Origin: Methylophilus sp. 5
GTDB taxonomy: Bacteria; Pseudomonadota; Gammaproteobacteria; Burkholderiales; Methylophilaceae
Assembly (NCBI RefSeq): GCF_000515275.1
Contig: NZ_KI911560.1
Coordinates: forward strand, 1,178,001-1,242,000
DNA: 64,000 nucleotides
Direction of reading: 5' to 3'
Part shown: piece by piece, positions 36,957 through 59,344 of the stretch
Layout of the letters: each line of letters opens with the position of its first letter
Numbering within the stretch: the stretch's first letter is position 1
Made by a program: the position numbers and the translations under genes
The notes under the pieces: model-generated
The model's database searches: none
What the model was told of the DNA's origin: nothing
Seen by the model: only the letters and a program-made list of their open reading frames with translations

Positions 36957-39900
36957 TTAAATACAATTTGAGTTGACGCCGTCTGGCAATTTCACGCCAG
37001 AACTCAGGATAGGCGTACTGCCCAAATGGTCCTCATTGGTTGGACAAGCCACCGCATCCAGATCATCCTCATCACCAGCAGCAGGGTTCAGAGAAACGAT
37101 AAACATCGTATTCAAGATCGGGTTGTTAGGAATCAAGCCACCTAAACCGGCATCATCACGTGGTGATGCGAACCCGGCAGGCGTTGGCGTGACTGGCACA
37201 GCTGTAATGCTACCCGTTGCGGTTGAGTTATTGCTGACCGTCGTATAAGCATTGTAAATAACTTTGCCCTCATTGGTCACCGCACTGGTGATCGTTGTCG
37301 CACCCGTAGTAATCGCCTTACCTGCGCCCACAGCTGCTGTGTCAAACGATGCGCTGGTTAATGCCGCTGGCGAGAAGGTAACCACATCATTATCAAGCAC
37401 GCCGCTGGTTGTCAGCGTCAAGCCACTTAAATCAGTCACCGTATTAGTACCATCAAACACCTTGGTAGATGTACCCGCCAAGGTCGCAGTGACTGTTGGC
37501 GTCACTTGATGTACAAAGCCGTTACCAGTGCCTAACAAGGCGCCACCAAATGCAGTGCCATATTGCTTGTAATCATAAGTCGCCAGCAAATTACTGCCTT
37601 TTACATCGCCGGTTGGATCATTACTGTAAATGGTCCAACGGCCGGTTGCCCCATCATTAAATTTGATAGTGTGCCCCGCAGGGCTAGCGTTATTAATAAA
37701 GTGACGGCCCGCAACCAGCTGGACTGCTTTACCTGCATCAGCTGGAACTTCATTCCTATTGCTTGTGATATCGCCATTCATGTATACATCACGGACAGCC
37801 TGAACAAGAATCCTAGCGCCATTGCCCGCTATACCAGTACCCGTTTTGTCTCCACCTTCAACAGTGATAGCGCCAAAGTTAATATCGCTGTCAACTGCCG
37901 TGGTTTTTAATGTCACGGCTCCTGCTGCACCACCGGACTTATTCGTACCATTACCATCTGCACCAGAAGCTGTAATCGCCTGAACAGTAATACCTTTAGC
38001 TGCAGTGATGCTCACAGCACCAGCACTCTTGCCATCGGTATTAGCACGGCCGGTACCAGCACTGGTATCAATATTGCCAGCGGCCACGGTTCCACCAGCA
38101 GCAGAAAGCGTTACTTTATTGCCAATAGCGTTAAAACCACCCTTGGTAGACACATCGCCAACGGTCACATTGCCTGTAGTGCTTTTAACACTCACCTCAC
38201 CAGAGGCCACAGAAACAATAGAAGTACGTCCGGCATTACCTGCACCCGTCGTAATATTGCCTACTTTGGCATCACCGGTAGTGGTAATGTCGACCTTACC
38301 GCCAGTGCCGCCGTTGCCAATTGGTAATGTTTTCAGTGGCACGACAGATACAATTGTAGGTGTCGTGTTGCCATTACCAGGACTGCCAGAATTCGAGCCT
38401 GACGTATTGATACTGCCCGTCATATTCAGGCTGCCTGCCTGAATAACCACGCTACCGCCATTAAATCCATTGCTTGCGCTCGGTGCAACGCGTCCATTCG
38501 CCGTAATGTTGGCTGTGCCTAAATCTGCCAAACCAGCCACGGTGATTTTGATACTGCCTGCATGGCCAAAGCCTTTATCATCACCATTGGCACTAATATT
38601 ACCTGCGGTGTGAGTCAATGTTGCTGCAGACAAAATTACGCCGCCAGGGCCAGTAATATTGGCACCAATCGCCAAATTACCCACTCCATCAGTATCAGCA
38701 TCGGCTTTCAGATTGATACTGCCTTTGCCTGAGGTGGTCAACGCCGCATTCACATTGATATCGTTATTGGCTTCAAGGCGAATATTGCCATCCACGTTCA
38801 TCGTGACGGCTGTATTTACGTTAATGTCTTTTGTCGCTTGCAAAAACAACTCGCTAAAGCCGGTGATGCCTGCAACATTAATATTGGTTGTACCGCCAGC
38901 ATTGTCACCAAACGCCACATCTGGCGTACCAGAAGCATTATCGGTGACTGCAGAGCCGCCGCTGATCAAGTTGATTGTCTCAGGGTCCAACAACACTGAA
39001 CCGCCAAGGCCATTAGCCGCGGCCACATTCACAGTGCCAAGAAAAGCCAGGTCTTGCTTGCCAGAGACCTCAACAAAACCACCATTACCACTGGCCGCAC
39101 CGCCTTGTGCAGAAATACTGCCATAGTAACGGGTCAAATTATCGGCCCAGACAACCACCTTACCGCCGTCACCCTGTTGGAGTGCATCCGCTTTGATAGT
39201 CGCGCCACTCGCAACATAAGTGGTTCTTGAGTTATAAACAGCGTCGTTTTTACCTTGGTAATCACCACCAACCAGCACCTTGCCACCACCCGTATCACCA
39301 GAGGCATCCAGTAAGGCACCATTCATCAAGGCCACTTGCTCACCGGTAACTTCAATCGACCCACCCGTCGTGCCTTGACCTTGTGCGATCAACTGGCCTG
39401 ACACCTCAACCTTAGCGTTATCGCCACCTTCAAGGCTGATCATGCCGTTGCGTTCAACCAGTTGATTGGCTTCAACAATGCCGGAAACATTGATTGCTGA
39501 CGAACGGGCATTCGTTGCTAATTGCACCAAACCACCATCTGCATAAATGGACCCGCTGTTTTTAATGGTTGCTTCAAGCGCATCGCCTGATAATTTAACT
39601 TTTACCAAGCCATTGCCAAAAAAGTCTAACGTTGCCGTTTGTGCAGAACCCAGTGCCACGCTGCCATTGCTGGCGACCAAAGTGCCACTGTTGTCTACTG
39701 TTTTACCCAGCAAAACAATATAACCTTCGTTTTGTGCTTTAATCACGCCGCGGTTTTCGATATTGCCCACAAGGTTGCCTGCGGTAAACTGATAATTACC
39801 CTGCAAAAAAGCCTCATTGGAAATATTTAAGGTAGAAGCCACAATATTACCGACGTTGACCTCTGAGCCTTTGCCAAACAGGATGCCATTCTGGTTCACC

Positions 39901-40379
39901 AGAAACAGGCTACCCTTAGCGTTTAACGTACCCATAATTTCGGAACGGCTGTTGCCAATCACGCGATACAGTGCGCGACCAGCATCAGGCATGATGACAT
40001 CCAGCTGATTGCCTTTCGCCACGCCGAACTTGTAGAAATCAACAATGTTGACATTGGCGGTATGAATATACTGGGTGTGGGTCGCGCTGACCTCTTTCAC
40101 GGTCAGGTCACCGGCAATCACACCAGCCACAACGTTAGTATCTGCCATTGATGAGAGAGGCATGATCGCCGCGGCAAATGCACTCGCAACGACAAAACGC
40201 CATTTGCTCGAAGAGGTCAATGCTGCAGCAAGCATCCCGCTTGCCGCCGGCGCTTCGCCCACTTGACCACTCACATTAGATTTACCATGGGCACGGGCTG
40301 TTTCGGCGACTGCCACCCACGCTTGCTGGAGCTTGCTCCAGACCAAACGATAAACATGGTTTAAGGATGCTGCTTTCAT
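36957..40379 (-). CDS. Two-partner secretion exoprotein, HMW1/filamentous-haemagglutinin-like
   Basis: A 1140-residue secreted protein. The first ~75 residues are an extended signal peptide (ESPR) starting with LNHVYRLVWSKLQQAW, then a cleavage region near SSMA-DTN. Residues ~80-330 are a TPS secretion domain, including NQNGILFGKGSEVNVGNIVA, that docks to the partner transporter. A long Gly/Asn/Asp-rich beta-helix follows, with a YDG-like repeat near TKVFDGTNTVTD. The only two Cys in the protein are near the extreme C terminus (VACPTN and SNCI, 28 apart), an arrangement recalling HMW1 adhesins that stay tethered to the cell. It follows a good ribosome site AAGGAGA. Adhesion or contact function is inferred. 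Confidence 0.87.
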   Translation of the reverse strand: MKAASLNHVYRLVWSKLQQAWVAVAETARAHGKSNVSGQVGEAPAASGMLAAALTSSSKWRFVVASAFAAAIMPLSSMADTNVVAGVIAGDLTVKEVSATHTQYIHTANVNIVDFYKFGVAKGNQLDVIMPDAGRALYRVIGNSRSEIMGTLNAKGSLFLVNQNGILFGKGSEVNVGNIVASTLNISNEAFLQGNYQFTAGNLVGNIENRGVIKAQNEGYIVLLGKTVDNSGTLVASNGSVALGSAQTATLDFFGNGLVKVKLSGDALEATIKNSGSIYADGGLVQLATNARSSAINVSGIVEANQLVERNGMISLEGGDNAKVEVSGQLIAQGQGTTGGSIEVTGEQVALMNGALLDASGDTGGGKVLVGGDYQGKNDAVYNSRTTYVASGATIKADALQQGDGGKVVVWADNLTRYYGSISAQGGAASGNGGFVEVSGKQDLAFLGTVNVAAANGLGGSVLLDPETINLISGGSAVTDNASGTPDVAFGDNAGGTTNINVAGITGFSELFLQATKDINVNTAVTMNVDGNIRLEANNDINVNAALTTSGKGSINLKADADTDGVGNLAIGANITGPGGVILSAATLTHTAGNISANGDDKGFGHAGSIKITVAGLADLGTANITANGRVAPSASNGFNGGSVVIQAGSLNMTGSINTSGSNSGSPGNGNTTPTIVSVVPLKTLPIGNGGTGGKVDITTTGDAKVGNITTGAGNAGRTSIVSVASGEVSVKSTTGNVTVGDVSTKGGFNAIGNKVTLSAAGGTVAAGNIDTSAGTGRANTDGKSAGAVSITAAKGITVQAITASGADGNGTNKSGGAAGAVTLKTTAVDSDINFGAITVEGGDKTGTGIAGNGARILVQAVRDVYMNGDITSNRNEVPADAGKAVQLVAGRHFINNASPAGHTIKFNDGATGRWTIYSNDPTGDVKGSNLLATYDYKQYGTAFGGALLGTGNGFVHQVTPTVTATLAGTSTKVFDGTNTVTDLSGLTLTTSGVLDNDVVTFSPAALTSASFDTAAVGAGKAITTGATTITSAVTNEGKVIYNAYTTVSNNSTATGSITAVPVTPTPAGFASPRDDAGLGGLIPNNPILNTMFIVSLNPAAGDEDDLDAVACPTNEDHLGSTPILSSGVKLPDGVNSNCI

Positions 40380-40609: not shown

Positions 40610-42316
40610 CTAGAAATTTTTTCTTAACTGGCCCCAGAGTTGGTACTCTGTATTACTTTCGGCAGCATCAAGATCGCGTTTCTGCTGTGTGTAGGTCGTG
40701 GTTAAAATCCATTGCCCCGGGAACTGAATATCAGTACCGACACCAACCATGTTAGACCTGACGTACCGACTGCTGCCAATCGGGTCATGGTTCAACTTGC
40801 CGCGGCCCGCATCAAAAAATGCAAATGGCGTGACGGACTGAATATAAGGCGTGACATCCGCACCGGTAGTCGCAAATGTTTTGCGCACGTCGGTGCCTAC
40901 CATCCAGCCTTGGTCAGCCTGGCTTGGAATCTCTGAAAATTGACGCCAGCGGTTAATGGCACCAATACCAAAGCGCTCAGCAATATCCAGGTTGTTACCG
41001 GCGCCCTGATAATCGGCCCGCACAATCCAGTTCACACCATTGTCAAACACTTGGGTACGGCTGGAGGTCCAGTTCCACTTCACAAAACTGCCTTGGGTAT
41101 CAAGTAATCCCCGGTCATTCGCTTTTGCCAGCGAGTCTTTATAAGAGACATTACCGCCAGTGACCAAGAAGCTCCATTGATAAGCCACACTACCGGTTTC
41201 GTTAATCCAGTCACCCACCAGGCCTAGCTCCAGGCTACTGATATCGCGACGATTATTAATCGAAAATGCATCAACATCATCATCTAAAATCTTGTAGTTA
41301 GTGCCCACTTTAAAGGCGACGCCTTTTTTGGTTTCACGCAACAACGGATGCTCAAGTGACGCATACAGATAATGCGCATCACCAGAGGCATCAAACTGCT
41401 TGAAATCACCGCCGAGCTTATAATCTACATAGCTATAGGCTAAGTTCATGATCGTGCCTGCACTGCCCACAGGAGTAAAATACAAGCCGCTTAACGAGCG
41501 CTGACCTTCATCTCTTGAAGTTTTACCGACTACGGCCAATTGGTCGCCACGGCCATTGAGGTTATTCACGGCCAAACCAAAGCCCAGCGTTTCGTGGTTG
41601 GTGTAGCGGTTACCATAAGTGTTTGCACTGACAAAACCACTGTATTTGGTTCTAGGTTCCACAGACACAGCCACATCTGAGCTACCGACCGCCTCACCGG
41701 GGTTAAGCTGTGAAGTCACCTGTATGCCCGGCAAGCCGTTCATCACCATAATGTTACGCACCAGGTTGCGCTCATTGAGCACATCACCCTTATTCAAGCC
41801 GTATTCTGACAATGACTGGAAATAAGGCTGATCCAGGCCTTGGCCAACTTCAGCTTTAACGTCACCCAATGTGCCCTCCAAAATAGAGAGCTCAACAACG
41901 GCCGCAGCTTCTGTGGTTTTCTGCAAATCCTGGGTGGGCAAATACACTTGCGTTAACAAATAGCCGCGCTGACGATAATAGTTACGCACCGTACCAACCG
42001 CTTCATTCAGTTCACGCAAGCCAATTTCATGGCCGGTCAGGTGCGCCAGTTGCGCAGCCAGCACTTCATCTGAAAATTGTTTGTTGCCAGAAAACTTAAA
42101 TTCTTTAACCACAATTTTGAGGCTGGATTTTTTTTGTTTTCTTTCTGGTGCAGGCGTTTCTTCAGGCACCTGAATGATCGGTCTTGGCTCAGGCAACACC
42201 GGTCTTGGTAAGTTTTGCTGAATGTCCGGCAAAGAAACACCGCCGGCCAGTACTTGCGATGTATAGCCGATTGCCAACAGCTGCAGCAGGCCTATACGCT
42301 TTAATTGTGTGTTCAA
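40610..42316 (-). CDS. Two-partner secretion outer-membrane transporter (TpsB, ShlB/FhaC/HecB family)
   Basis: A 568-residue Omp85-like transporter that exports the adjacent exoprotein. After the signal peptide a Pro-rich segment leads to POTRA domains (KIVVKEFKFSGNKQFSDEVL, then the LNERNLVRNIMVMNGLPGIQV region), and the rest is a 16-stranded beta-barrel ending in an aromatic FxF-type strand (LWGQLRKNF). The order transporter-exoprotein on one strand with a 230-bp gap is typical. Residues about 484-493, near DVTPYIQSV, are encoded by the exact DNA of a spacer of the CRISPR array at 57.8 kb. The reading frame is intact. Confidence 0.9.
   Translation of the reverse strand: MNTQLKRIGLLQLLAIGYTSQVLAGGVSLPDIQQNLPRPVLPEPRPIIQVPEETPAPERKQKKSSLKIVVKEFKFSGNKQFSDEVLAAQLAHLTGHEIGLRELNEAVGTVRNYYRQRGYLLTQVYLPTQDLQKTTEAAAVVELSILEGTLGDVKAEVGQGLDQPYFQSLSEYGLNKGDVLNERNLVRNIMVMNGLPGIQVTSQLNPGEAVGSSDVAVSVEPRTKYSGFVSANTYGNRYTNHETLGFGLAVNNLNGRGDQLAVVGKTSRDEGQRSLSGLYFTPVGSAGTIMNLAYSYVDYKLGGDFKQFDASGDAHYLYASLEHPLLRETKKGVAFKVGTNYKILDDDVDAFSINNRRDISSLELGLVGDWINETGSVAYQWSFLVTGGNVSYKDSLAKANDRGLLDTQGSFVKWNWTSSRTQVFDNGVNWIVRADYQGAGNNLDIAERFGIGAINRWRQFSEIPSQADQGWMVGTDVRKTFATTGADVTPYIQSVTPFAFFDAGRGKLNHDPIGSSRYVRSNMVGVGTDIQFPGQWILTTTYTQQKRDLDAAESNTEYQLWGQLRKNF
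40836..40865 (-). other. Protospacer: exact 30-bp match to CRISPR spacer 11
   Basis: These 30 bases, inside the TPS transporter gene, are identical to spacer 57761-57790. The match stops exactly at the repeat boundaries on both sides. In crRNA orientation (minus strand) the 3' flank, where a Cas9 PAM would lie, reads CGTCACGC. It differs from the NNNNGATT PAM of Neisseria Cas9; the PAM of this Cas9 is unknown. Confidence 0.97.
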
Positions 42317-52239: not shown

Positions 52240-52336
52240 GCCATAACAGAAAGCCCAGCACGAAGGCTGGGCTTGGATACAGAATCTTTCGACTCTTTAT
52301 TGTAGCAACGGCTCTCACCCCGGATGACCACAACGA
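52240..52336 (-). ncRNA. tracrRNA of the type II-C CRISPR locus
   Basis: The anti-repeat (52299-52334, minus strand) reads GTTGTGGTCATCCGGGG and then TGAGAGCCGTTGCTACAAT. It is complementary to the crRNA repeat except for a bulge and a few mismatches, and it shares GAGA.CCGTTGCTACAATAA with Neisseria tracrRNA. Downstream are a short nexus hairpin GAGTC, GAAA, GATTC (52282-52295) and a 9-bp terminator stem AAGCCCAGC/GCTGGGCTT (52251-52274). The RNA is compact, about 90-100 nt. A promoter with TTGCTA, 17 bp, TATTAT would start it near the anti-repeat. The 3' end is approximate. Confidence 0.88.
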
Positions 52337-52340
52337 CTCA

Positions 52341-52369
52341 ATAATAAGGAATAAAAATATGAATAGCAA
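52341..52369 (-). promoter_or_regulatory. Likely tracrRNA promoter, overlapping the cas9 start
   Basis: On the minus strand, -35 TTGCTA (52364-52369), a 17-bp spacer and -10 TATTAT (52341-52346) fit sigma-70. The expected start is about 6-7 bp further, at the anti-repeat. The cas9 AAGGA ribosome site (52346-52350) and ATG (52359) lie inside this promoter, so the two transcripts must be read divergently across the same bases. The promoter of cas9 itself is not apparent. Confidence 0.6.
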
Positions 52370-55300
52370 GCAGGGTGTGAAATATAGCATTGGCTTGGAT
52401 ATTGGGATTGCCTCTGTAGGCTGGGCACTACTGGGAGAGCATCGAGTTATTGATTTGGGCGTACGTTGTTTCGATAAAGCAGAAACAGCCGACAAAGGTG
52501 AGTCACTCAACTTGGCGCGCCGGTCTGCACGTTTACTACGCCGACGTTTGAGAAGGCGCGCATGGCGGCTAACCAAGCTTGCACGACTATTCAAACGTGA
52601 AGGGTTGATTGCTGATGTCAATGTGCTCAAACAACCACCGGCCAAAGGTTTTGCTACACCAAACTTATGGCAATTACGTGTTGAAGCACTGGATAGGAAG
52701 CTCAGCGCTGAAGAATGGGCAAGAGTCATTTATCATTTATGTAAACATCGTGGCTTTCATTGGCAGAGCAAAGCTGAAGAGAAAAAAGCAGATGATGACA
52801 AAGAAGGTGGCGCAGTCAAAAAGGGCTTGGCAGGGACTAAAAAGCTGATGCAGGACAAAGGCTATCGTTCGGCGGCTGAAATGGTGATCAACGAATTCCC
52901 CGATGCGCAACGCAACAAACGTGGCGATTACAGTAAAGCCTTATCTCGTGAACTGCTTTCAAGTGAATTGCACATGCTGTTTGAAAGCCAGCGCACATTC
53001 GGCAATCCCAATACCTCTAGTGAATTCGAAAACAAACTGCTGGAAAGCAAACATGGACTGCTATGGGCACAAAAGCCCTCGCTATCGGGTGAAGCACTTT
53101 TAAACATGCTAGGTAAGTGCACATTAGAGAAAAATGAATACCGCGCACCGAAAGGCAGCTTTACTGTAGAACGTCATGTTTGGTTAACCCGATTGAATAA
53201 TTGCCGTTTGATTATTGACGGTGAGAAACGTGCACTGACACCAGCAGAACGCGCACTTGCCATTAATCTACCCTATGACCAAAGCAGTGATTTCAGCTAT
53301 AAGCAATTACGCAACGCCTTAGTCAAAGCGGGGCTGACAAGCGAGTTCCGTTTTGCCGGATTGGTTTACCCTAGCCAATCAGAACAAGAAAAATCCAAAA
53401 ACCCGGAAGATGAAAAGCTGATTAAATTACCTGCCTGGCAACAGTTACGCAAAGCCATGAAAGAAGCCAACTTGGAAAGCGATTGGCAGAAAATAGCAGT
53501 CGATGCGCTGGATGGTAAAGCGCAGCTTTATGATGGCATTGCCAGAATTCTGAGTGTTTATAAAGAAGATGATGAAGTTGAGCGCGAGCTAAACAAACTA
53601 GATTTACCCAACAAACCTGACATGGTTGCAGTATTACAAACCTTTCGGTTTGAGCAGTTTAGTAATCTTTCCCTTAAAGCACTGTACAACATACTTCCAC
53701 ACATGGAAAAAGGCCAGCGCTATGACGAGGCCTGTCTGGCCGCTGGATACCACCATAGTCAACAGCATGTCATCAGTACTGGTGAGTACCGATATCTACC
53801 GCCATTTTATAGCGGTCGTGACAAAGACGGCCGTCTTAAATTTAACGAAGAGCTGGATATACCCCGCAACCCTGTTGTGCTGCGTGCATTAAATCAAGCC
53901 AGAAAAGTCGTCAATGCCATCATCAAAAAATATGGCTCGCCAGATCAGGTACATATTGAAATGGCCCGCGACTTATCTAAATCATTTGATGATAGACGTG
54001 ACATTAAAAAAGCACAGGACGAATACAGAGATCGTAACGAGAAAGATCGCTCAACCTTTAACCTTGAATTTAATACTACTGGCGAATTGAAAGGTCGCGA
54101 ATTTGAAAAATGGCAGCTTTATCGTGAACAGCATGGAAAGTGCGCTTATTCATTACAAGCATTAGACATGAATCGCTTATTTGAAATGGGCTATGCGGAA
54201 GTGGATCATGCACTTCCGTATTCGCGTAGTTACGATGATAGTAAAAGTAATCGAGTGTTAGTGCTAGCTGCCGAGAATAGAAACAAAGGCAATATGACAC
54301 CTTACGAGTACTTAGGCGGTGCTCAAAACAATGTACGCTGGATTGAATACGTAGCCTTTGTGAACTCGAACAAAACTTATCGCCAAGCCAAACGTAACCG
54401 GTTATTGCGTAAAGATTTTGGTGAGGAAGCCGCCAAAGAGTTTAGTGAGCGCAATTTAAACGATACCCGTTATATTTGCCGCTTTTTTAAAAACTATGTC
54501 GAGCTCTATCTCAAACTGGCCGATGAAAGTGATGCAAAACGCTGCGTCGTCGTCAATGGTCAATTAACCTCGTTTCTGAGAGCACGCTGGGGTTTAGTTA
54601 AGGTACGTTCAGACTCCGACCGACACCATGCCTTAGACGCTGCCATCGTTGCAGCTTGTAGCCATAGTATGGTTAAACGCTTGGCGAACTACTCAAGGCG
54701 TAAAGAACTTGAGGCTGCGCGTGAAGGTTTTGTGGACCTAACCACGGGTGAAATTGCAAATCACGCAATGTATGCTCAACTCGAGCAACACTTTCCATTC
54801 CCTTGGTCGCACTTTAGGCAAGAGTTACAAGCAAGATTGTTCGCAGATGATTTACAAGCTATGCGCAATGAGCTGGAAAATATGGGCTACGACGCTGATG
54901 CACTAGATCACGCTAAAACGTTATTTGTCTCTCGTGCACCGCAACGGCGCAATGGTGGCGCAGCGCACAAAGAGACCATTTATGGTCAATCTGAAAAGTT
55001 AGCAACAACTGGCAGCGTCACCCAAAAAATAGTCGTGACAGATTTGAAGTTATCCGATCTGGATAAGCTCGTTGAACCACATCGCAATCAAAAACTTTAT
55101 GCCGAAATTGCAGAGTGGCTGAAAGGAAAGGACGAGCGAGAAAAGCGCGTGAAAGAAATTGAAACGAGCCTAGGCCGAGGTAAAGATAAACGTGAAATGA
55201 CTGCTGAAGAAAAAGCAGAAGTTGAGCGACTAAGAGCTTTACCACGCAAACCTACCAATGACGGGTCGCCAGGGCCTGTAGTGCGAACTGTGACGGCAGT

Positions 55301-55763
55301 GATTGATAAACTATCTGGCATTCCGATTAGGGGCGGTGTTGCGAAAAATGACTCCATGTTGCGAGTGGATGTATTTAGCAAAGCAGGTAAATTTTATCTT
55401 GTGCCGGTGTATGTGCATCATCGCGTCACAGGATTACCGAATCGGGCGATATTACAAGCTAAAGATGAGGCAGAATGGACATTGATTGATGAAAGTTTTG
55501 CTTTCAAATTTACGCTATATCCTAATGATTATGTATGCCTCATTCAAAAAGGAAAGTCACCCTTATATGGATATTATGCCGGATGCGACAGAACAACCGG
55601 CAATATTGACTTATGGAGTCATGACCGAAACAGATTAATTGGTAAAGATGGTTTATTACGAAGCTTAGGCGTAAAAACAGCCATTAGTTTAGAGAAATAC
55701 AATGTCGATGTTTTAGGCAATATCTATCCTGCGCCAAAGGAAACTCGAAGTGACTTGGCGTAG
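52359..55763 (+). CDS. cas9: Type II-C Cas9 endonuclease
   Basis: RNA-guided DNA endonuclease of 1134 residues, close in size and layout to Neisseria Cas9. Catalytic residues are all present: D14 in SIGLDIG (RuvC-I), E534 in HIEMARDLS (RuvC-II), H617 in VDHALPYS (HNH), and H756-H757 and D760 in RHHALDAAIVA (RuvC-III). An Arg-rich bridge helix follows RuvC-I (ARLLRRRLRRRAW). The C-terminal ~250 residues form the PAM-reading part. The ATG at 52359 has AAGGA 8 bp upstream. It overlaps cas1 by 14 bp. Nothing in the frame suggests inactivation. The PAM is unknown. Confidence 0.98.
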   Translation: MNSKQGVKYSIGLDIGIASVGWALLGEHRVIDLGVRCFDKAETADKGESLNLARRSARLLRRRLRRRAWRLTKLARLFKREGLIADVNVLKQPPAKGFATPNLWQLRVEALDRKLSAEEWARVIYHLCKHRGFHWQSKAEEKKADDDKEGGAVKKGLAGTKKLMQDKGYRSAAEMVINEFPDAQRNKRGDYSKALSRELLSSELHMLFESQRTFGNPNTSSEFENKLLESKHGLLWAQKPSLSGEALLNMLGKCTLEKNEYRAPKGSFTVERHVWLTRLNNCRLIIDGEKRALTPAERALAINLPYDQSSDFSYKQLRNALVKAGLTSEFRFAGLVYPSQSEQEKSKNPEDEKLIKLPAWQQLRKAMKEANLESDWQKIAVDALDGKAQLYDGIARILSVYKEDDEVERELNKLDLPNKPDMVAVLQTFRFEQFSNLSLKALYNILPHMEKGQRYDEACLAAGYHHSQQHVISTGEYRYLPPFYSGRDKDGRLKFNEELDIPRNPVVLRALNQARKVVNAIIKKYGSPDQVHIEMARDLSKSFDDRRDIKKAQDEYRDRNEKDRSTFNLEFNTTGELKGREFEKWQLYREQHGKCAYSLQALDMNRLFEMGYAEVDHALPYSRSYDDSKSNRVLVLAAENRNKGNMTPYEYLGGAQNNVRWIEYVAFVNSNKTYRQAKRNRLLRKDFGEEAAKEFSERNLNDTRYICRFFKNYVELYLKLADESDAKRCVVVNGQLTSFLRARWGLVKVRSDSDRHHALDAAIVAACSHSMVKRLANYSRRKELEAAREGFVDLTTGEIANHAMYAQLEQHFPFPWSHFRQELQARLFADDLQAMRNELENMGYDADALDHAKTLFVSRAPQRRNGGAAHKETIYGQSEKLATTGSVTQKIVVTDLKLSDLDKLVEPHRNQKLYAEIAEWLKGKDEREKRVKEIETSLGRGKDKREMTAEEKAEVERLRALPRKPTNDGSPGPVVRTVTAVIDKLSGIPIRGGVAKNDSMLRVDVFSKAGKFYLVPVYVHHRVTGLPNRAILQAKDEAEWTLIDESFAFKFTLYPNDYVCLIQKGKSPLYGYYAGCDRTTGNIDLWSHDRNRLIGKDGLLRSLGVKTAISLEKYNVDVLGNIYPAPKETRSDLA

Positions 55764-56655
55764 CGTTGTTATCTCCCAACCAGCCAAGCTACGACGTGAG
55801 CATTTCTCGCTAGCGATTGAGCAGGCACAAACCGCATTTGTGCCTTTTGAAGATATTGCGGTGATTGTGCTAAACAACCGGGAGATCACACTTACTCATC
55901 CTGTGCTTTCCGCGTGTGGTGAATATGGCATCAGCTTATTTTCAACCGGGGACAATCACCAACCAAATGGCATTTTTCTGCCATACCTTTCGCATTCACG
56001 CGCCAATAAATGGATGCGTTTGCAGTTAGATTTTCCTAAACCAAAATCCAAGCAAACCTGGGCAGCCATCATACGGCGCAAAATTGCTAATCAGGCAATT
56101 TGCTTGCGCCTTTCGGGCCGGGATGGGGTTGAGCGCTTAGAGTCTTATGTGGGACGCGTTCGCTCTGGTGATATTGAAAATATGGAGGGTCAGGCAGCTG
56201 CTTTTTATTTTCCACTGTTATTTGGCAAAGGCTTTAAGCGTATGCAAGAGAGCTTTACCAATGCTGCGCTGGATTATGGTTATGCCATTTTGCGCGGCAC
56301 GATTGCACGTGGGCTGGTCGCGCACGGCATGATGCCAGCCATGGGGGTTTTTCATGCCAGTGAGCAAAATGCGTTTAATCTGGCCGATGACCTGATTGAG
56401 CCTTTTCGGCCATTGGTTGATTTGTGTGTGAAAAATATGCCGCTACCCGCAAATGATGTTTTGACGCCTTTACACAAAGCAGGGTTGGTGAACTTGCTCA
56501 ATATTGATGTGAGTATGCCACGCGGCACTATGTCGGTGTTATCTGCAATAGAACAATTAGTCGAAAGCTTGGCACGAGTACTCGATGGTGGCAGCCCAGA
56601 GATGTTGGAACTGCCGGTTTTAATAGGGTTGGAGCAACATCAACTAGAGTATTAA
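55750..56655 (+). CDS. cas1: CRISPR integrase Cas1
   Basis: A 301-residue spacer-integration nuclease acting as a complex with Cas2. Metal ligands expected for Cas1 are seen: E146 in NMEGQAAAFYFP, H202 in FHASEQNAFNLADDL and an Asp at 213/214 just before the LIEPFRP signature. It starts with GTG at 55750 inside the end of cas9 and is followed by cas2 two bases after its stop. There is no cas4 or csn2, consistent with type II-C. Confidence 0.97.
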   Translation: MTWRSVVISQPAKLRREHFSLAIEQAQTAFVPFEDIAVIVLNNREITLTHPVLSACGEYGISLFSTGDNHQPNGIFLPYLSHSRANKWMRLQLDFPKPKSKQTWAAIIRRKIANQAICLRLSGRDGVERLESYVGRVRSGDIENMEGQAAAFYFPLLFGKGFKRMQESFTNAALDYGYAILRGTIARGLVAHGMMPAMGVFHASEQNAFNLADDLIEPFRPLVDLCVKNMPLPANDVLTPLHKAGLVNLLNIDVSMPRGTMSVLSAIEQLVESLARVLDGGSPEMLELPVLIGLEQHQLEY

Positions 56656-56657
56656 CT

Positions 56658-56990
56658 ATGAGTGGGGAGAACAGACGATATATGCGACTGCTAGTATTAT
56701 TCGACCTCCCAACGGTGACTAAAGCCGAACGTCGTGCCTACACGCTCTTCAGGCGTTTTTTAATCAATGACGGCTATGACATGATTCAATTTTCTATTTA
56801 CGGTCGCCTACTCAATGGCAACGATGCGCTTGATAAACACCTAAAACGATTAGTCGATAATTTGCCGCCAGAAGGCTCTGTACGGTGCTTAAGTGTCACA
56901 GAAAAACAGTATGCAAGTATGAAACTACTGGTTGGACTACCGCTTTTTCAGGAAAAAAAGGTCAAATCAGACCAACTTCTTTTGTTTTAA
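56658..56990 (+). CDS. cas2: CRISPR adaptation protein Cas2
   Basis: A 110-residue Cas2 of the type II kind. The ferredoxin-like core begins MRLLVLFDLPTVTKAERRAY with the conserved Asp near position 16, followed by FRRFLINDGYDMIQFSIYGR and a C-terminal LPLFQEKK segment. It forms the dimeric scaffold of the Cas1-Cas2 integrase. It is the last cas gene; a hairpin and the array follow. Confidence 0.96.
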   Translation: MSGENRRYMRLLVLFDLPTVTKAERRAYTLFRRFLINDGYDMIQFSIYGRLLNGNDALDKHLKRLVDNLPPEGSVRCLSVTEKQYASMKLLVGLPLFQEKKVKSDQLLLF

Positions 56991-57053: not shown

Positions 57054-58811
57054 ATTGTAGATCATCCGGGGTGAGAGAGGGAGCTACAACTTGCACATTT
57101 GCGCTAAGTGGGCTTGGCCTATTGTAGATCATCCGGGGTGAGAGAGGGAGCTACAACCCGACCACCAAGTCAGTCCGCGACAACCTTATTGTAGATCATC
57201 CGGGGTGAGAGAGGGAGCTACAACCCGACCACCAAGTCAGTCCGCGACAACCTTATTGTAGATCATCCGGGGTGAGAGAGGGAGCTACAACTGGTAATAC
57301 AAATCATATTTACGTTCGATGATTGTAGATCATCCGGGGTGAGAGAGGGAGCTACAACCATGCGCACAGCGTCAGTATGGTCAGATGAATTGTAGATCAT
57401 CCGGGGTGAGAGAGGGAGCTACAACGCATTGCGTTGAAACTGGAGAGCTTCCAACATTGTAGATCATCCGGGGTGAGAGAGGGAGCTACAACGGTGGAAG
57501 AGTTGCGGAAGCCCATAATTGAATTGTAGATCATCCGGGGTGAGAGAGGGAGCTACAACGGCGTGAACGTCGACCCTCTCGATCATCAAATTGTAGATCA
57601 TCCGGGGTGAGAGAGGGAGCTACAACGCCTGCCGCATCCCATGACTTACTTGACGCATTGTAGATCATCCGGGGTGAGAGAGGGAGCTACAACCCACGGG
57701 GTCAGCAAGACCTGTAATTGTAAATTGTAGATCATCCGGGGTGAGAGAGGGAGCTACAACGACTGAATATAAGGCGTGACATCCGCACCGATTGTAGATC
57801 ATCCGGGGTGAGAGAGGGAGCTACAACACGGTGATCGCGTATTGATCGGAAGCACGAATTGTAGATCATCCGGGGTGAGAGAGGGAGCTACAACAGCAAG
57901 CGCGACCATACTTGAATTGTTGCTATTGTAGATCATCCGGGGTGAGAGAGGGAGCTACAACTAACCAGGATGAGAAACTCACTCAAGCATAATTGTAGAT
58001 CATCCGGGGTGAGAGAGGGAGCTACAACCAGCATCTTTTAATGCCCTTTCTTCATCGGATTGTAGATCATCCGGGGTGAGAGAGGGAGCTACAACTATAA
58101 GGGAAATACATCATGTCTATCAATAATTGTAGATCATCCGGGGTGAGAGAGGGAGCTACAACGTTTCATGACGTGGGCTGCATGGGTTTTAGATTGTAGA
58201 TCATCCGGGGTGAGAGAGGGAGCTACAACAAAAGCGATCCTGTTCAGGACTTGGTTCGCATTGTAGATCATCCGGGGTGAGAGAGGGAGCTACAACTTAT
58301 ACACTGATTTACAGCAAAGACGATGCATTGTAGATCATCCGGGGTGAGAGAGGGAGCTACAACATGAGAAGAGCATCTGCTTGAGTGCGGGCCATTGTAG
58401 ATCATCCGGGGTGAGAGAGGGAGCTACAACGCTGGCACTAGGCGCATGCTTGAACGATTTATTGTAGATCATCCGGGGTGAGAGAGGGAGCTACAACACC
58501 ACCACTAACAATAGAAGAACCGAAACCATTGTAGATCATCCGGGGTGAGAGAGGGAGCTACAACGCTTCATGAACACATCGCATAGCCCAGACAATTGTA
58601 GATCATCCGGGGTGAGAGAGGGAGCTACAACGTCAACGCTGGTCTAATCATTGGCAATAATATTGTAGATCATCCGGGGTGAGAGAGGGAGCTACAACAT
58701 TGCGCGCTAATGTAAGCGCTCGCTCTTTATTGTAGATCATCCGGGGTGAGAGAGGGAGCTACAACGCAGGATTGATGAGAAGTGCGCCTCTAGTTATTGT
58801 AGATCATCCGG
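57054..58811 (-). CRISPR. Type II-C CRISPR array, 26 spacers
   Basis: 26 identical 37-bp direct repeats, each starting ATTGTAGATCATCCGGGG and ending GGGAGCTACAAC on the plus strand, followed by a 27th repeat truncated after 16 bp (58796-58811). Starts run every 67 bp from 57054 to 58796, so every spacer is 30 bp. Spacers 2 (57158-57187) and 3 (57225-57254) are identical. Spacer 11 (57761-57790) matches the window's own TPS transporter gene. crRNAs read GTTGTAGCTCCC, as in Neisseria, so transcription is on the minus strand, opposite to cas. Each repeat ends on that strand in TACAAT, a -10-like hexamer, but the TG extension of the Neisseria promoters is missing. Confidence 0.98.
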
Positions 58812-58996: not shown

Positions 58997-59344
58997 TTAT
59001 TCAGCCAAAATAGCCTCTATTCGCATCGCCACTTCATCCAACACAAAGCTTGGCGCAGCCTCTTTAAACTTAGCTTGGCGCACGCGCCAATCCAGTGACT
59101 TTAACTGATGGCAATGTACTGCACCCTGTGTTTCTGTACCACTTCCCATCAATGTCACCACTGTGCCATGCGTTCTGGCCGCTGCGGCTGCGCCTTGCGA
59201 GATAGGGCAGATCATTGCCAGGCCACGCTGGTTGAATAGCTTTGCACTGACAACCAAACCGAAATGCGGGCCTTTCATCTCCTGACCGGAGGATGGGTCA
59301 AACTGCAAGTGAACAATATCACCTCGTGCAGGCACATAAGCCAT
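58997..59344 (-). CDS. MazF/ChpB-like mRNA interferase toxin
   Basis: A 115-residue PemK/MazF-family toxin that cleaves RNA. Recognisable are the N-terminal RGDIVHLQFDPSSGQEMKGPHFGLVVS, MICPIS, and the CHQLKSLDW segment typical of ChpB. Its start overlaps the last base of the antitoxin stop, so it is read in the same operon. It sits next to the CRISPR array, 186 bp from the truncated repeat, and could help keep the locus. Confidence 0.9.
   Translation of the reverse strand: MAYVPARGDIVHLQFDPSSGQEMKGPHFGLVVSAKLFNQRGLAMICPISQGAAAAARTHGTVVTLMGSGTETQGAVHCHQLKSLDWRVRQAKFKEAAPSFVLDEVAMRIEAILAE

Follow-up and report, generated by a model that had tools for sequence, protein, structure and literature searches.

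Spacer 11 of the type II-C CRISPR array described here, part of a 64,000-nucleotide stretch of Methylophilus DNA (the window), is identical over its full length to a place inside tpsB, the host's own gene for a two-partner secretion transporter. It is very probably a tolerated spacer that came from the host itself (or from a near-identical strain), at a place without a PAM. Evidence for this reading comes from the Cas9 residue that reads PAM position 5, from the phage matches of two other spacers, and from the bases that flank the self site in this strain and in its congeners.

The self match

The array, the matched site and the secretion genes are as follows.

57054..58811, minus strand: CRISPR array of 26 identical repeats of 37 bp, 26 spacers of 30 bp and a truncated repeat of 16 nt
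57761..57790, minus strand: spacer 11, in crRNA sense (minus strand) CGGTGCGGATGTCACGCCTTATATTCAGTC, matching 40836-40865 at 30/30
40836..40865, minus strand: self protospacer inside tpsB, with the crRNA-sense 3' flank CGTCACGC and A at position 5
40610..42316, minus strand: tpsB, two-partner secretion transporter of the ShlB/FhaC family, 568 aa (PF03865 ShlB, 9.2e-19; PF08479 POTRA_2, 7e-15)
36957..40379, minus strand: tpsA, secreted partner with ESPR and TPS secretion domain, 1140 aa (PF05860, 9.6e-22; PF13018, 1.3e-12)

An earlier note on this DNA had reported that spacer 11 matches the transporter gene, and direct sequence comparison confirms it. The two copies lie on the same strand and agree at 30 of 30 bases. 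Beyond these bases they diverge, the crRNA-sense flank being GTTGTAGC in the array and CGTCACGC at tpsB. For 25 spacers and both strands, the chance expectation is about 1.3e-10 exact matches of 30 bases. The site lies 85% into tpsB, a reading frame that was called mechanically and begins with a TTG start codon; tpsA adjoins it.

The genome is a single contig of 3,033,021 bases and is 99.99% complete. When it was searched with the array as query at E<=1, three places were returned, namely the array itself, the tpsB site and the anti-repeat of the tracrRNA candidate, and no other spacer matched this single-contig 3.03 Mb genome at that threshold. Spacer 11 is therefore a self-targeting spacer in the usual sense, having an identical place in its own genome outside the array, and the match is both real and the sole self match found at E<=1. 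Misassembly was considered as its source and is unsupported, as both copies are on one contig.

The array ends in a truncated 27th repeat (ATTGTAGATCATCCGG, 58796-58811). Twenty-five of its 26 spacers are distinct: spacers 2 and 3 (57158-57187 and 57225-57254) are identical, a repeat-spacer unit having been duplicated close to the cas2 end, which fits recent activity there.

The CRISPR-Cas locus and the orientation of its crRNAs

Ahead of the array, in plus-strand order, lie the following features.

52252..52325 (limits approximate), minus strand: tracrRNA candidate, in which a GC hairpin with a short T run follows the anti-repeat and its adjoining CCGUUGCUACAAUAA core
52359..55763, plus strand: cas9, type II-C, 1134 aa, catalytic residues kept
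55750..56655, plus strand: cas1 (PF01867, 1.4e-25), the sole Cas1 match in the genome
56658..56990, plus strand: cas2 (PF09827, 3.8e-15)

The genes run in the order cas9-cas1-cas2 on the plus strand, from 52359 to 56990, and the array follows. Cas9 has the RuvC and HNH residues D14, E534 and H617, with DRHHALDA at 754. Neither csn2 nor cas4 was found beside the three genes, and a profile search for Cas4 (PF01930) gave no match in the genome. A Cas9 with both HNH and RuvC domains, accompanied by cas1 and cas2 and by no adjoining csn2 or cas4, places the locus in type II-C. The Cas9 catalytic residues, Cas1, Cas2 and the tracrRNA candidate all look intact, as the earlier note had judged. The system is like those of the Nme1/Nme2 type II-C kind in Cas9 sequence, in its 30-bp spacers and in gene order, and its repeat ends are presumably Nme-like as well.

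The locus is bordered by DUF1508 and SDR proteins on one side; on the other lie genes for a PemK/MazF-like protein and for an ABC ATPase. The PemK/MazF-like protein (58997-59344, minus strand; PF02452, 1.6e-19), which lies just past the far end of the array, is possibly one half of a toxin-antitoxin pair.

The direction in which the crRNAs are read decides which flank of the self site matters. With the array as query, the anti-repeat of the tracrRNA candidate, upstream of cas9, was matched at 52296-52327. In computed pairing it is complementary to the repeat, as expected of a type II-C tracrRNA, and forms a duplex of -40.4 kcal/mol with the minus-sense repeat. By symmetry, the mirror arrangement with both partners on the plus strand also pairs, over a longer stretch (-48.0). 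The minus strand is preferred because the anti-repeat is followed there by a core that we take to be that of an Nme-like tracrRNA, and by the GC hairpin at about 52252-52273. The tracrRNA candidate thus supports a crRNA read from the minus strand, and on that orientation the flank given in the earlier note, CGTCACGC, is the right one. The crRNA of spacer 11 (crRNA 11) is then of the same sense as the mRNA of tpsB, which is a minus-strand gene.

PAM inference

Three features bear on the PAM.

55587..55589, plus strand: codon of Cas9 residue D1077, the aligned counterpart of H1024 in Nme1Cas9, which reads PAM position 5
58029..58058, minus strand: spacer 15, matching an inovirus rep gene at 29/30 with the flank AAAACCTT; used for the PAM
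57627..57656, minus strand: spacer 9, matching phage protospacers (in a terminase gene in the annotated one), four seen and all with C at position 5 (C5); used for the PAM

In the alignment to Nme1Cas9 chains, D1077 falls opposite H1024 within an ungapped stretch. Nme1 has His at this place, whereas the Cas9 here has Asp and keeps the other three PAM residues, Q981, T1027 and N1029. Among the tested orthologs described in PMC9433092, Asp at the H1024 place went with a strong C at PAM position 5. For Nme2, the account in PMC9701194 has residues D1028 and R1033 setting N4CC.

The earlier note had proposed that the PAM be predicted from phage matches of the other spacers, and this was carried out. 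Spacer 15 matches the inovirus MW202882 at 29/30 with the flank AAAA-C-CTT, and spacer 9 matches an IMG/VR contig at 28/30 with the flank TTTGCGAC (TTTG-C-GAC). Position 5 is thus C for both of the spacers whose phage matches reach 28/30 or better. Weaker homologs of the spacer 9 protospacer carry C5 as well (IMG/VR, 26/30 and 23/30; a Psychrobacter phage terminase gene, 26/30), although these are non-independent because of their shared coding context. The flank of the self site reads CGTC-A-CGC, with A at position 5 (A5). In the array repeat this position is T (GTTG-T-AGC), which means that a C5 rule would spare the array too.

From these flanks and the Asp residue we infer an N4C-type PAM in which C would be needed at position 5, and NNNNACGC is predicted not to be cut by this Cas9. 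Effective autoimmunity would take a functional PAM beside the match; the prediction is C5, and the self site has A5. The lethal cutting that the earlier note anticipated is unexpected at a site where no PAM is predicted.

The PAM prediction draws on one residue rule and on the independent phage matches of two spacers, for which a shared C at one position would arise by chance about 1 time in 16. Matches below 28/30 show mixed bases at position 5. Spacer 23 matches microviruses at 25/30 with T5 and at 24/30 with A5, and against 27 VP4 homologs its best match is 24/30, with position 5 mixed. Spacer 15 matches an inovirus Rep homolog at 23/30 with T5 and, in family genomes, sequences at 26/30 with C5 and at 24/30 with G5. 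Further family-genome matches were found for spacer 16 (24/30, A5), spacer 22 (25/30, A5), spacer 25 (23/30, A5) and spacer 10 (23/30, C5). The family search covered 187 genomes with two candidates scored per genome, and its whole-spacer fits of 23 to 26/30 are taken as chance. The 27 VP4 loci and the one inovirus Rep homolog were tried as PAM guides and rejected as too diverged. Weaker matches of these kinds are either diverged or due to chance, their flanks need not equal those of the DNA that was captured, and they lend no added support to C5. For one spacer of a relative whose Cas9 also has Asp (G232), an IMG/VR contig offers a 25/30 match flanked by A5, which counts against the C5 rule if that contig is the true source. 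Positions 6-8 disagree between the two phage flanks (CTT versus GAC). Degenerate PAMs are described for some type II-C orthologs (PMC9433092).

Other searches for protospacers covered phages, plasmids and related genomes. The array matched nine records among the INPHARED phages, of which only MW202882 (29/30) is convincing by itself. Spacer 11 aside, exact matches in IMG/VR were sought for five of the 24 distinct spacers and came from one of them: three for a 20-mer of spacer 9, and none for 22-mers of spacers 15 and 23 or 20-mers of spacers 22 and 2. A plasmid search with the array gave five records in which the matches span repeats, with no protospacer recognised. An order-wide search (399 genomes, two candidates each) returned arrays, repeat-overlapping pieces and the known tpsB site, and no new protospacer was recognised by coordinates. 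No usable INPHARED phage protospacer was obtained from the arrays of four relatives with Asp (L009, L153, L155 and L157) or from that of G074, whose Cas9 has His at the H1024 place. No literature was found on the PAM of a Methylophilus Cas9.

Survival could also be explained if CGTCACGC were a usable PAM and interference were off, through an anti-CRISPR, a silent cas9 or a hidden defect. Anti-CRISPRs against type II-C systems have been described. However, the self flank mismatches the predicted PAM, the nuclease residues, Cas1, Cas2 and tracrRNA candidate show no visible damage, and Phage_portal (PF04860), one prophage marker only, is absent from the genome. A usable PAM with interference switched off is, on this evidence, distinctly improbable.

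The self site in congeners

Homologs of TpsB (E<=1e-20) are present in 16 of 21 congeners, some of whose genomes are incomplete. Eleven of them allow an ungapped alignment of the homologous 30-mer, at 19 to 27/30 identity; the other five TpsB-bearing congeners, whose best ungapped match is 16 to 18/30, were dropped from this count. Flank position 5 is A in all 11. In a protein alignment a conserved Thr codon begins at this position. Across the 16 homologs its first base is A in 14; a single homolog has T (Ser), and another has C (Gln), the latter belonging to congener G013, where the alignment is doubtful at 25% identity. Escape by mutation of the PAM was rejected on account of A5 in 11/11 alignable congeners. 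This uniformity gives no sign of PAM loss at the self site in this strain, and the flank was probably never a PAM.

The Cas9 query matched only G013 among the 21 congeners, a genome that is 82% complete, and the match was in two pieces; the TpsB homolog of G013 is 25% identical, and its best match to the site, 17/30, leaves none recognisable. No Cas9 match was found at E<=0.001 in the 11 congeners with an alignable site. A repeat-like piece was seen in a further congener (G019), without a Cas9 match. From the arrays of relatives, 468 distinct spacers (including 11 of this genome, via L152) were compared with the window and the fetched tpsB loci at E<=0.01, and only own-genome spacers matched.

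The congeners also bear on the source of spacer 11, which might have been the DNA of a close relative, received through a lysate, transduction or conjugation, and not the strain's own chromosome. The spread of tpsB through the genus favours such a donor, as does the identity of the PAM-proximal 23 bases of the site in two congeners. Nevertheless, a 30/30 match is found only in the strain's own copy among the loci compared, and a donor all but identical to this strain would be required, a distinction of little consequence for function. We regard this origin as rather unlikely. In IMG/VR, no exact match to spacer 11 was found.

A possible regulatory role

Regulation of the surface secretion system was another suggestion of the earlier note. 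In this case crRNA 11 would act by PAM-free RNA cleavage or by DNA binding without cutting, the latter being the mode of F. novicida. Type II-C Cas9 proteins of C. jejuni and N. meningitidis are described as capable of PAM-free RNA cleavage (PMC6990116, PMC13431127), and the match here is perfect and located in a surface system. Nevertheless, crRNA 11 shares the sense of the tpsB mRNA and cannot pair with it, which excludes targeting of the sense mRNA and leaves only an antisense transcript as a target. Type II spacers in general lean to the template strand, as described in PMC8482600. Binding to DNA would still depend on a PAM, and a site so far into tpsB is away from the promoter. Nor do the 21 congeners offer any pairing of Cas9 with the site, the only one with a Cas9 match having no recognisable site and those with an alignable site having no Cas9 match, while the spacers of relatives, those of this genome aside, miss the tpsB loci. 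Regulation by crRNA 11 is thus very improbable, and regulation through spacer 11 that is conserved in the genus is unlikely. A specific form of the idea, in which Cas9 with crRNA 11 acts PAM-free on an antisense transcript of tpsB and tunes secretion, with the spacer kept by selection, is barely credible.

The scaRNA systems of Francisella and Neisseria, as described in PMC13431127, have a type II Cas9 and an endogenous gene in common with this case. They differ in that the guide here comes from a spacer of the array, is of the wrong strand to pair with the mRNA, and has a target site without a predicted PAM. Regulation of DNA of the scaRNA type involves PAM-dependent binding of an endogenous site, and spacer 11 instead offers a 30-bp full match without a predicted PAM. 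At the RNA level, a regulatory crRNA would be complementary to its target transcript, which crRNA 11 is not.

Acquisition and tolerance of spacer 11

For the history of spacer 11 we infer capture from the host's own chromosome, or from a nearly identical strain, at a site without a PAM. crRNA 11 is probably produced and loaded, and the tpsB site would not be licensed by Cas9, its flank having A at position 5 where C is predicted to be needed. Lacking the predicted PAM, the tpsB match would be neither cut nor stably bound. Self captures beside a real PAM would lead to cell death, and a self spacer without one would be the survivor. Two variants of the capture were considered. Inverted insertion is of no help, as the other flank, GTAGTCGC, has T at position 5. 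The self flank has C at positions 4 and 6, such that a one-base shift in register would give C5; a slipped capture is possible on these grounds, at a level near chance.

The position of spacer 11 suggests an order of events. Type II-C arrays are described as growing at the transcript 3' end (PMC12638026). Here that end is the cas2 side, with the truncated repeat at the opposite end. Growth at the cas2 side would make ten spacers (nine distinct) newer than spacer 11, and acquisition appears to have gone on with spacer 11 already present. The long tolerance that the earlier note read from the mid-array position is plausible to the extent that growth was at this side. Taken as a whole, that interpretation is partly supported: accidental self-acquisition with a non-PAM flank agrees with D1077 at the residue for PAM position 5, with C5 in both close phage protospacers and with A5 at the self site, whereas lethality would not be expected and regulation lacks support.

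Comparison with other self-targeting spacers

In a 2010 survey, self-targeting spacers made up 0.4% of all spacers and occurred in 18% of 330 genomes (Stern et al. 2010, via PMC6990116), and some of them are classed in PMC6990116 as non-effective for want of an apparent PAM. The PAM-less self spacers described there resemble spacer 11 in having a perfect chromosomal match, cas genes, no apparent PAM and a host that tolerates them. On the features given in that source there is no substantive difference, the PAM here having been derived from a named residue and two phage matches. Campylobacter jejuni PT14 (Hooton and Connerton 2014, via PMC6990116) also has a type II-C system with spacers derived from the host chromosome. 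Capture in PT14 is ascribed to a phage-encoded Cas4 (PMC6990116), whereas the present genome is without a Cas4 match. Spacer 11 appears to be a further instance of the recorded class of self spacers without an apparent PAM, with no new mechanism indicated. It is a clean illustration from nature of the way in which dependence on a PAM can render self-derived spacers harmless, and it offers a prediction, namely an N4C-type PAM for Cas9 proteins with Asp at the H1024 place and other PAM residues like those of Nme1.

Related Cas9 proteins and repeats

Among the Cas9 proteins of relatives with similar repeats, the residue at the H1024 place varies and includes Asp, His, Asn, Gly and others, a pattern consistent with PAM switching in this Cas9 clade. 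Cas9 matches in two pieces were obtained in three relatives of the family, namely G183 (L058, L071), G116 (L057, L072) and G013 (L059, L073), which suggests broken or misassembled cas9 genes in these genomes.

Closely similar repeats are also found on a plasmid. Acidovorax temperans plasmid pEP1 (NZ_CP117194.1; L032) has a type II-C-like array together with cas2 and a Cas1 gene of only 390 bp; Cas9 is absent among the genes listed for the 16 kb covered, in a plasmid gene table that is incomplete.

Finally, a repeat-like stretch was seen in a microvirus from rodent faeces, bajarodmic virus 840 (PQ007086.1). At positions 154-190 of the matched locus (L163), where no gene is annotated, a 37-nt stretch with inverted arms agrees at 30/37 positions with the type II-C repeat of a relative, G485, and at 25/37 with the repeat described here. 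A second record, PQ006227.1, matched the L009 array at a similar place, and the BLAST E-values were 0.2 to 0.8. The 37-nt stretch could be a solitary repeat or a chance hairpin; solitary repeats are known as a kind of RNA anti-CRISPR.
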